Assembly (NCBI GenBank): GCA_023819145.1
Contig: JAMWCW010000004.1
Coordinates: forward strand, 73,935 to 124,084
From: Candidatus Omnitrophota bacterium
Lineage (GTDB): Bacteria; Omnitrophota; Gorgyraeia; DTHP01
Length of the DNA stretch: 50,150 nucleotides
Direction: 5' to 3'
Shown: piece by piece, positions 6,721 to 11,363 of the stretch
How the letters are laid out: each line of letters starts with the position of its first letter
Numbering within the stretch: the stretch's first letter is position 1
Notes under the pieces: generated by a model
Told to the model about the DNA's origin: nothing
What the model saw: the letters and a program-made list of their open reading frames with translations, nothing else
The model's database searches: none
Translations under genes and position numbers: made by a program

Positions 6721-6785
6721 AAAACAAGATGCAAAAATCAAAAGGAAAAATTAAAAAAATGGTTACTGGTTACTGGCGATCCCCA

Positions 6786-7760
6786 ATGAAGTTGCTACTT
6801 AAAAGAAATCTTGAGTTCCCGATAAGAATCTTCATAGTGATAATTCTTCCGGGATTGGCTACTTCTTTCTTAAGCGGTTGTGCTACCGTTTACAATCCCG
6901 CTACCCAGCAGAAAGAATTAATCTTAATTGACACAGGAACTGAAGTTATGTTGGGTAAACAAATAGATTTTCAAATTTCTCAAAGTTACGAAATTGTCAA
7001 AGGAACTCAGGATAATGAAAGGGTAAATATCATCGGAAAAAAAGTCGCTGAGGTTTCGGACCGTCAAGATATAAGATATATCTTTAAAATTGTTAAGGAT
7101 AAGGAAGTCAATGCTTTTTGCACCCCTGGCGGTTATGTTTATATCCATACCGGCCTTCTAGAAAAAGTTAACGATGATGAGCTTGCTTGTGTGATTGGTC
7201 ATGAGATAGGACATGTTGCTGCTCGGCATATTGTCAAGAAACTTCAGGCACAGCTCGGTTATGAACTCTTAGTCAGTCTTGCCTTAGGCAGGGGAGGAGC
7301 GCAAGAAATAGAAAAAGCACTAAATGTTGCTTTTAATATTATTGCTTTAGGTTACAGCAGAGAAGATGAATTCTTGGCTGATAAATTAGGAATAAAGTAT
7401 GCTTATAAAGCAGGTTATGACCCTCAAGCGATGATAAACTTTTTCAAAAAATTACAAGAACTAAAAAAAGACAAAACCATGGCCACCCCACTTTTCTTGC
7501 GTTCCCATCCCTACTTAGAGCAACGCATCGAAAGAGCAGGCCAGGAAATTACAAAACTTCAACAACCAGAACTATCTTCCTTAACTCTAACCAACCCGCA
7601 ACCTCTTTCTCCTAAAAACCCCACTCTTTCCTTACAAGAAGAAAAAACCAGCACTGCTTTTACTACAAAATATAAAAAATGTCCTACCTGCGGTAAAATC
7701 TATCCCCGTAATTACCAATATTGTATCCAAGATGGAAGCTCGTTAATTGCTTATCCTTAA
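6786..7760 (+). CDS. M48-family zinc metalloprotease, lipoprotein, with C-terminal zinc ribbon
   Basis: A 324-residue BepA/YcaL-type peptidase. The signal sequence ends in a lipobox (LSGC). The HEIGHVAARH zinc motif and the downstream SREDEFLAD glutamate motif are intact. The C-terminus adds a ribbon with CPTCG and a further Cys (QYCIQDG), unusual for the family. The frame is open up to an ATG at 6729, but that stretch is AT-rich intergenic-type sequence with GGTTACTGGTTACTGG, so I place the start at 6786; no clear ribosome-binding site supports either. A paralogue lies at 12404-13162. Likely role: quality control of envelope proteins. Confidence 0.87.
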   Translation: MKLLLKRNLEFPIRIFIVIILPGLATSFLSGCATVYNPATQQKELILIDTGTEVMLGKQIDFQISQSYEIVKGTQDNERVNIIGKKVAEVSDRQDIRYIFKIVKDKEVNAFCTPGGYVYIHTGLLEKVNDDELACVIGHEIGHVAARHIVKKLQAQLGYELLVSLALGRGGAQEIEKALNVAFNIIALGYSREDEFLADKLGIKYAYKAGYDPQAMINFFKKLQELKKDKTMATPLFLRSHPYLEQRIERAGQEITKLQQPELSSLTLTNPQPLSPKNPTLSLQEEKTSTAFTTKYKKCPTCGKIYPRNYQYCIQDGSSLIAYP

Positions 7761-9015: not shown

Positions 9016-9162
9016 CTATTCTGGTTGAGGCTTAATTAAAATTTCTCCCGAAGCACGTCCAGGCTTGGACTGTTTAACATTTTCTAAACTCAGGCGGGAA
9101 CATCCGCTAAGGGGAAAAATAACCAAGAATATTATCGAAATTAATCTAAAAAACAGCTTCAT
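9016..9162 (-). CDS. very small lipoprotein
   Basis: A 48-residue reading frame: MKLFFRLISII, a hydrophobic stretch, then the lipobox LSGC at residues 18-21 and a short hydrophilic tail ending IKPQPE. Its ATG overlaps the ancestral stop of the pilT pseudogene (ATGA), the arrangement of a translationally coupled last gene of an operon. The signal peptide and lipobox are intact although everything just upstream is broken. Function unknown; plausibly envelope or pilus associated. Confidence 0.6.
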   Translation of the reverse strand: MKLFFRLISIIFLVIFPLSGCSRLSLENVKQSKPGRASGEILIKPQPE

Positions 9163-10201
9163 CTTTTAAAAAGGGTTGCGTCTTTGGCAAAAGGCACAAT
9201 CACTTCGTATTTCACCAAACCTTTTTTATACAGCTCTAAAAGCGACATATCCATGGTACGCATCCCGTATTGTGCCCAGTCTGCAGTAAGGCATAAATCT
9301 GCTGGGTTTGACCTTGTCGAATTAAGGCAGAAATTGCCGGGGTCATAACCAGAACCTCGGTAGCCACTACCAACCCCTTACCATCTTTGCGCGGAAAAAG
9401 CAACTGTCCAATACCCCCCCCGTAAACATTCCGCTAACTGAATTCTGATTTGTGCCTGTTGGTTCCCGGGAAACATGTCAATTATGCGGTTTACAGCCTG
9501 AATTGTTTCGGCGGTATGTAAGGTAGTAAAAACCAAGTGTCCGGTTTCCGCTGCAGAAAGCGCCGTTGCCACAGATTCTAAGTCCCGCATCTCTCCAATT
9601 AAGATTACATCAGGGTCCTGCCTTAATACATGTTTTAAGGCGTTATTAAAAGAAATAGTATCTATGCCTACTTCTCTTTGCTTAATGATACTTTTTTAGG
9701 GGTAAAAAGAAATTCAACGGGGTATTCTAAACTAACAATTACTTCTCCACTCGTCTGATCAATAAGTTCAAGCATCGAAGCTAAAGTTGTAGATTTCCCG
9801 CTACCCGCGGGTCCGGTTACAATAATAAAACCGCTCTTTTTCAAAGCCAATTACTTAACTACTACCGTAAGCCCTAATGCTTCAATTGTGGGAATCTTCT
9901 GAGGAATCACGCGAAACGCTGCCTCAATATTCCCTTGCTGTTTATGAATATTTACCCGAAACCTACTCCCATCAGGTAATGCATAAGAACAATCAAGTTC
10001 TAATTCTTTATCAAATTTTACTCTCTGCCGAGGGTCGATTAAACCATAAATAATGTGCTTTAAATCCTCACGGCTATAGGGACTATTTCCCAAAGTTTTT
10101 AATTCTCCATAAATACGCAATACAGGAGGAAGATCAACGGTAAGATGTACATCGCTCGCTTATAATCTTACTGCTTTCGCCAATACTTTATCAATGTCCA
10201 T
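9159..10201 (-). pseudogene. pilT: pilT (type IV pilus retraction ATPase), broken by nonsense and frameshift mutations
   Basis: Reading the - strand from an ATG at 10201 gives a full-length PilT only if errors are ignored. The start is MDIDKVLAKAVRL, then an in-frame TAA (10160-10162), then ASDVHLTVDLPPVLRIYG. A second in-frame TAA (9851-9853) sits where PilT normally has Glu just before the Walker A block [13 protein letters not shown] frameshift near 9690-9697 moves to the frame of [11 protein letters not shown] and GEMRDLESVATALSAAETG. More frameshifts follow at a run of eight C (9414-9421) and near 9290. The C-terminal TMDMSLLELYKKGL is still readable. PilT powers pilus retraction; here it cannot be made. 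Confidence 0.88.
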
Positions 10202-10533
10202 CCGCTCAATATAATTATTTATCACCTCCTGGTCGGATTTATTCATTTCTATGAAATCAATCCCTAAACCATACTTAGCAAGATGTGTCCTCTCTTCTAC
10301 CCTTATCACCCTGCCTTTACACAGAATTGTTTTAGAAGCAGGAGGAAAATCTAATTGAAGACTTAAGAGGGTTTCTAAAGTAAAACCTTCTCTACTTCTA
10401 AATATAATCCTTTGTCACTAATATTCTCGACAGGCGCAGTTTTTATTTCCTTTTCTCCTTCCACGACATATCTACACATAAAACGTGTACGGAGACGTTT
10501 GGCCTCACGTTTTTCGACAAAACCTTCATTCAT
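10160..10533 (-). pseudogene. PilZ domain gene with frameshift, running into pilT
   Basis: An ATG at 10533 with an excellent ribosome-binding site (AAGGAGG) opens MNEGFVEKREAKRLRTR, then ENISDKGLYLEV, a PilZ N-terminal half that stops at 10375. The next frame continues the domain (LETLLSLQLDFPPASK, then AKYGLGIDFIEMN), so one base was lost or gained near 10380-10390. The second half reads without a stop into the first 13 codons of pilT, so the ancestor may have been a PilZ-PilT fusion or two overlapping genes in the same frame. It sits 14 bases after the intact PilZ gene. Confidence 0.8.
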
Positions 10534-11122: not shown

Positions 11123-11363
11123 AAAAAAGATTGAGAGACCGATAAAGTTCTCTTGAGATTCTTCGGCAACCCAGCCACCTTAGCGCTTTTTACTCTATTA
11201 TTTCCTCACCTCCTTTTCCTTATTCCGCGCTTTAGGCCTGTCGGCTTTGCCCCGCCTGCAGCTACTTGCTTCTGCTGTGCGTCGGGGTCCCGATGGAGAA
11301 CCTCTTTGGAACTCTTCATTCGGGACGTCCCCCGATTTCTCGGGGTTTGCCTTTATCGGTCTC
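11123..11363 (-). promoter_or_regulatory. cyclic di-GMP-I (GEMM-I) riboswitch with inserted hairpins
   Basis: On the - strand the conserved blocks appear in order: GGCAAACC (11351-11344), a P1b hairpin CCCCGA-GAAA-TCGGGG with the tetraloop, GACG (11329-11326), a 76-base insert, CAAAGCCGACAGGCCTAAAG (from 11249), a long P2-type arm, and GGTGGCTGGGTTGCCG (about 11178-11163). The G before CAAACC, the As of CAAAGCC and the C of TTGCC, which contact ligand in the known aptamer, are kept. GAGACCGATAAAG at the 5' end (11363-11351) is perfectly complementary to 11147-11135, and six Us follow, a likely expression platform. A TATCAT -10 lies 7 bases upstream (11376-11371). The downstream genes are PilZ and pilT, as expected for this class. 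Confidence 0.85.
11250..11325 (-). repeat. 76-base double-hairpin insertion inside the riboswitch
   Basis: The stretch separates GACG from CAAAGCC, which are adjacent in the known aptamer. It folds into two hairpins: GTCCCGA/TCGGGAC (the G coming from the flanking base) enclosing GAGTTCC/GGTTCTC, then CCCCG/CGGGG enclosing CAGC/GCTG. It is far more GC-rich than its surroundings. No flanking duplication was found. It looks like a small repeat element, but no second copy lies in this window. Confidence 0.7.

Follow-up and report, generated by a model that had tools for sequence, protein, structure and literature searches.

A GEMM-I (c-di-GMP-I) riboswitch located upstream of a PilZ-domain gene carries a double-hairpin element exactly between residues G45 and C46 of its aptamer, without any duplication of the target. 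The window, i.e. the whole stretch of 50,150 nucleotides that was analysed, comes from a Candidatus Omnitrophota bacterium, and the inserted sequence is a copy of a dispersed 75–76-nt element. Taken together, these data are probably best explained by an aptamer that still binds c-di-GMP while bearing the element and acts on the PilZ gene as an ON switch, the element itself being selfish.

The split aptamer and its insert-free orthologue

Direct reading of the sequence reveals a complete GEMM-I aptamer on the - strand, from 11363 to about 11155. Its 5′ half consists, in this order, of GAGACCGATAAAG, GCAAACC, P2 with its GAAA loop and GGGACG, after which comes a 76-nt insert (11325–11250); CAAAGCC then follows, with GGCCTAA and GGTGGCTGGGTTGCCGAAG further downstream. 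Exactly 76 bases (11250–11325) separate G45 from C46. The P2 GNRA tetraloop (GAAA) and its P3 receptor (GGCCTAA) are both present. The features of the locus are the following.

11351–11363, - strand: 5′ aptamer strand GAGACCGATAAAG (5′ strand of P1 and J1/2, ending in G20), from sequence; identical in G001 and G002
11326–11350, - strand: P2 with GAAA tetraloop, GCAAACCCCGAGAAATCGGGGGACG, whose final two bases are C44 and G45 (residue roles, PMC3764141)
11288–11325, - strand: hairpin 1 of the insert, TCCCGA...TCGGGA, 38 nt (folding, stem comparison)
11250–11287, - strand: hairpin 2 of the insert, CCCCG...CGGGG, 38 nt, with zero joiner bases to hairpin 1 (folding, stem comparison)
11174–11249, - strand: CAAAGCC (C46, A47–A49), then P3, comprising the tetraloop receptor GGCCTAA, a long loop and a closing GGTGGC (G83 equivalent)
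11155–11166, - strand: CCGAAGAATCTC, C92 equivalent and 3′ strand of P1 (sequence, relatives)
11123–11147, - strand: putative expression platform, in which a T run follows CTTTATCGGTCTC, a strand able to pair with either 11351–11363 (13 bp) or CCGAAGAA
10548–11051, - strand: intact PilZ-domain gene, the probable target (PF07238, 48 bits)
9160–10533, - strand: pseudogenised second PilZ-like ORF and pilT, with several frameshifts and stops

The whole split aptamer gave no match in cmscan at the Rfam gathering score. With relaxed settings, its two parts, taken separately, match RF01051 with 29.1 and 28.5 bits, and its 5′ part matches RF03167 (c-di-GMP-I-GGC) with 31 bits (E 1.5e-5). These half-aptamer scores carry little weight by themselves, since control genomes also gave weak matches in the same search; the identity is settled by an insert-free orthologous aptamer from the same family (G001:C53, L027), which reaches 70.4 bits for a cut-off of 35. 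A SNORD44 match at the locus was rejected as chance. Folding of the insert yields a pair of abutting hairpins (-28.4 kcal/mol, z = -3.4, 0/200 shuffles as stable). The preliminary description, made from the sequence alone, had recognized both the GEMM-I aptamer on this strand and the 76-base double hairpin separating GACG from CAAAGCC, and these two readings are borne out, coordinates included.

Alignment of the G001 orthologue with the window stops at one edge of the insert and continues at the other, the flanks joining to the base, and comparison of the window with this empty site reveals no target-site duplication. It was also proposed earlier that the aptamer be scored with and without its insert: it falls below the threshold with the insert and lies well above it without, the latter score being that of the G001 orthologue, which stands in for the joined flanks of the window. 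The interruption is therefore the reason why Rfam misses the split aptamer, even if some insert-bearing relatives pass the RF01051 cut-off (42.3 bits in G046, 40 bits in G002). The search for the insert in relatives, which had been suggested too, was fruitful, as copies of the element occur elsewhere in the class; G000 and G002 carry homologous aptamer inserts with a compensatory stem change. The riboswitch thus shares with RF01051 and RF03167 the conserved blocks, the pocket residues, the GAAA tetraloop with its receptor and the downstream PilZ gene, but differs from them by the 76-nt double hairpin that separates G45 from C46 and would make P2 a four-way junction, and by its score below the Rfam cut-off.

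At the GEMM-I site and at the tmRNA site, where homologous copies are present in G000 and G002, the element is exactly absent from G001 (L027, L188, L189, L190). G001 and G002 belong to one genus, yet differ in the presence of the element at these two sites.

Ligand pocket, expression platform and downstream genes

In the crystal structure of the aptamer, C46 pairs with G21. G45 pairs with C22, and G20, A47, A48 and C92 are key ligand residues (PMC3764141); the roles of G20, A47 and C92 in the pocket and of the C44–G83 contact are described in PMC3764141 and PMC4744006. When the numbering is mapped by hand, all the published key residues (G20, C22, A23, A25, G42, C44, G45, A47–A49 and C92) are found in the window aptamer, as are the residues of the C44–G83 contact. 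Since G45 and C46, which the insert separates, are neighbours at the base of P2, both insert hairpins and the two parts of P2 can meet without any unpaired base. In a joiner-free four-way junction of this kind, P2 would be able to stack through, and the earlier proposal that a coaxial junction could leave the switch working is judged right. Left unconstrained, the RNA reaches a fold about 8 kcal/mol more favourable than that with the junction in an energy model that takes into account neither ligand, tertiary contacts nor junction-specific stacking; as energy folding alone prefers another fold, the junction is a structure that we infer. A terminal G is present in 23/23 aptamer inserts versus 13/73 other copies. 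It would keep a G beside C46, a hint that the pocket has been under selection since the element was inserted, the aptamer copies being partly non-independent.

The platform strand CTTTATCGGTCTC corresponds to 11147–11135 and the CCGAAGAA strand carries the C92 equivalent; both are conserved in G001 and G002. Since a scan of the - strand for standard terminators found none, the platform is proposed solely from pairing and conservation. A comparable arrangement makes the Geobacter pilM switch an ON switch (PMC9262584).

The functioning of the split riboswitch could be modelled as follows. In the RNA, the two hairpins would turn P2 into a perfect four-way junction; P2 would stack through onto the pocket with the hairpins pointing outward, and the aptamer would still bind c-di-GMP. 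Once ligand is bound, pairing would occur between the 5′ strand (11351–11363) and the 3′ strand of P1 (11155–11166). In the unbound state, 11135–11147 would pair with 11351–11363 or with 11155–11166 beside the T run, and transcription would end. The PilZ gene is thereby predicted to be under an ON switch, like the Geobacter pilM switch. The element would be a selfish palindromic repeat persisting wherever the host RNA or protein tolerates it.

As the pocket residues and the platform strands are kept, the switch probably works despite its insert, and c-di-GMP binding is predicted as the probable outcome. Alternatively, the element might have destroyed ligand binding in an operon that is now decaying. 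This is unlikely: conservation extends to all pocket residues, to P1 and P3 and to the platform strands, G002 keeps a homologous insert with a compensatory change, about 20 split aptamers have intact cores and the adjacent PilZ gene is intact, which have to be weighed against two pseudogenes (pilT and the second PilZ-like gene) and an RNA that, in full, folds better without the junction. The breakage of the second PilZ-like ORF and of pilT is the reason why a dead switch keeps a small share of the probability. The preliminary description had named PilZ and pilT as the downstream genes and noted broken genes below the switch. Both genes are found and frameshifts and stops do break pilT and the second PilZ-like ORF, the PilZ gene directly below the aptamer being intact; the argument from these broken genes to a dead switch is weakened by this intact gene and by the retention of the split aptamer in relatives.

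A dispersed double-hairpin element and its hosts

The region, used as a query in relatives, gave insert-only matches outside riboswitches. A covariance model (R1) built from 13 element copies gives the whole window insert a score of 63.6 bits and has matches of 73–80 nt in 40/246 genomes of the same Omnitrophota class. Several genomes have 9–19 matches with both strands counted; such counts are approximate, as one copy is often matched on both strands and no more than 19 candidates were scored per genome. The window's own genome has five candidates, two of which are strong. In a phylum-wide sample, the element matches in 9/193 genomes, all listed in the same class, and matching public records are labelled Omnitrophota. 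The consensus is TCCCGAATGnAG...CTTCGGGA-TCCCGAAG...CTnCATTCGGGA (73–80 nt), and its stems change jointly (TCCCG/CGGGA, TGCCG/CGGCA, CTCCG/CGGAG). An Rfam search of the copies retrieved no family that covers the element itself. The copies outside riboswitches and the R1 matches in 40/246 genomes rule out that the insert is unique to this switch; it is a copy of a dispersed, mobile-type repeat rather than a domain of this switch alone, a point that the preliminary description had missed.

At 6780–6854 of the window, a weak match (E about 4e-4) coincides with the beginning of an M48 peptidase gene; most of a lipoprotein signal peptide would be encoded by the matching sequence.

The hosts of the element are diverse. 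In the window's genome, one copy lies within a tmRNA gene, besides which no further tmRNA was found there above the cut-off; by reading of the sequence, it would be located in the first pseudoknot. In G055, a copy is inserted in the specificity domain of the only RNase P RNA gene. A TPP riboswitch (Rfam match; also L184, by motif) and an AdoCbl riboswitch (also L162, by motif) each hold a copy. Many others lie in partial tRNA copies beside an intact tRNA, in the D loop, the anticodon loop, the T loop or at the 7/8 boundary. Seven copies are in frame in protein genes, which by eye appear to be PabB/TrpE-, GltD-, PFK-, RsmD-, flavodiiron- and ferredoxin-like; each is exactly 75 nt long and stop-free. 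By a hand tally, about 23/78 copies fetched by score regardless of context are inside recognisable RNA sequence. It may tentatively be proposed that the mobile element preferentially enters structured RNAs, in loops or between stacked pairs where it would form a coaxial junction, and would thereby have given rise to a recurrent four-way-junction subclass of c-di-GMP-I riboswitches; this broader idea is put forward with considerable doubt.

Several element-split partial tRNAs (L138, L141, L174, L140, L150, L139, L151 and L049) directly adjoin intact tRNA genes and are mostly copies of the neighbouring tRNA.

Some of these sites would be expected to be harmful (anticodon loops of the partial tRNAs, RNase P specificity domain, TPP aptamer), and the element is exactly absent from G001 at two loci. 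This could evoke an intron-like element removed from the RNA after transcription, so that the host RNAs would never really be interrupted. Such a removal is very improbable: the length is a multiple of three in 7/7 in-frame copies versus 33/73 elsewhere (p about 0.004), and no known splicing motif was seen in the element. As the in-frame copies are all 75 nt long and stop-free, translation fits them rather than removal.

Two candidate movers were considered. Y1 transposases are about equally common with and without the element (Y1_Tnp in 17/20 element-rich and 16/20 element-free genomes), so REPIN-type mobilisation is not supported. GIY-YIG endonuclease ORFs accompany just three copies, each located at a tRNA 5′ end, and were not retained either. 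One small GIY-YIG ORF (L099 1501–2100, G061) lies between an element-holding tRNA 5′ remnant and an intact tRNA; this tRNA seems to hold a group I intron, and the stop codon of the ORF lies within the tRNA 5′ end. L147 and L183 resemble this arrangement.

Recurrence at the same aptamer site and relation to other repeats

A strict pattern, in which the aptamer blocks are fixed and separated by any 60–90 nt with no stem requirement, was searched in 384 genomes. It occurs at 15 places, of which 11 are genuine aptamers, all with a double hairpin (11/11); the other four (L055, L057, L058, L068) have neither double hairpin nor P3 and are chance matches. The same 384 genomes contain 85 insert-free strict-pattern aptamers (in 61 genomes), so that 11/96 carry a double hairpin of 60–90 nt. 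When other lengths and looser flanks are included, the number of split-aptamer candidates rises to 23, from ten families, and about 20 of these are secure. L164, L180 and L182, counted among the 23, were kept out of the secure set, as they look like a GEMM-I 3′ half without a clear 5′ half; L182 is the sole weak Rfam match among them. In families f9, f19, f24, f42 and partly f3, the hairpin sequences are unlike the element and have the same zero-joiner geometry. Among 18 aligned stem sets, 98.9% of cells are paired, a percentage biased upward because the collection of 23 candidates required stems (the 11 strict-pattern cases did not), and 8/10 pairs have two-sided changes (0/500 shuffles as high); aptamer copies from related genomes are not fully independent.

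G002, G176 and G189 each hold an element copy inside P2 itself. In G025 (L015 1832 and L036 1533, - strand), the recurrent aptamer site holds palindromes of another family, TCCGCC...GGCGGA-CCCGCC...GGCGGG.

The covarying stems, and the recurrence of one position and one zero-joiner geometry in ten families, unrelated hairpin sequences included, are what would be expected of a regulatory domain of the aptamer (e.g. a second sensor or a folding aid) that evolved under selection for its own function. This is nevertheless quite improbable, as the loops are not conserved, hairpin length varies between 12 nt (a mini hairpin, L071) and more than 50 nt, 85 strict-pattern aptamers have no double hairpin and homologous elements are also found outside riboswitches.

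Rickettsia palindromic elements (RPE) are found in frame in proteins, and also in tmRNA and RNase P RNA (PMC2229807). Judging from descriptions of RPE, the element would resemble them as a small dispersed palindromic repeat with many copies, in frame in conserved proteins and present in these same two RNAs; it differs by its length (about 75 nt versus 105–146), its two abutting hairpins and its phylum, and would also be distinguished by its copies in riboswitches and partial tRNAs. Like the REP/REPIN repeats associated with RAYT (Y1) transposases, it consists of short palindromic repeats in pairs. Double-hairpin elements made of two adjacent hairpins are also dispersed in fungal mitochondria. 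Unlike these, the present element resides in a bacterial chromosome, has conserved TCCCGAATG...CATTCGGGA ends and can be read through as protein. A literature search found no paper on palindromes in Omnitrophota, nor on a riboswitch with an inserted repeat. The double-hairpin element appears to be a new family, in a phylum other than that of Rickettsia.

Interrupted RNA genes of this kind can escape standard RNA family searches, and the same aptamer, available in natural forms with and without insert, offers a testable model for the gain of peripheral RNA domains. If the proposed reading is correct, selfish palindromes could lie beside a riboswitch's ligand pocket, or enter tmRNA or RNase P RNA, without destroying their host, and such tolerance would extend to a phylum far from Rickettsia.
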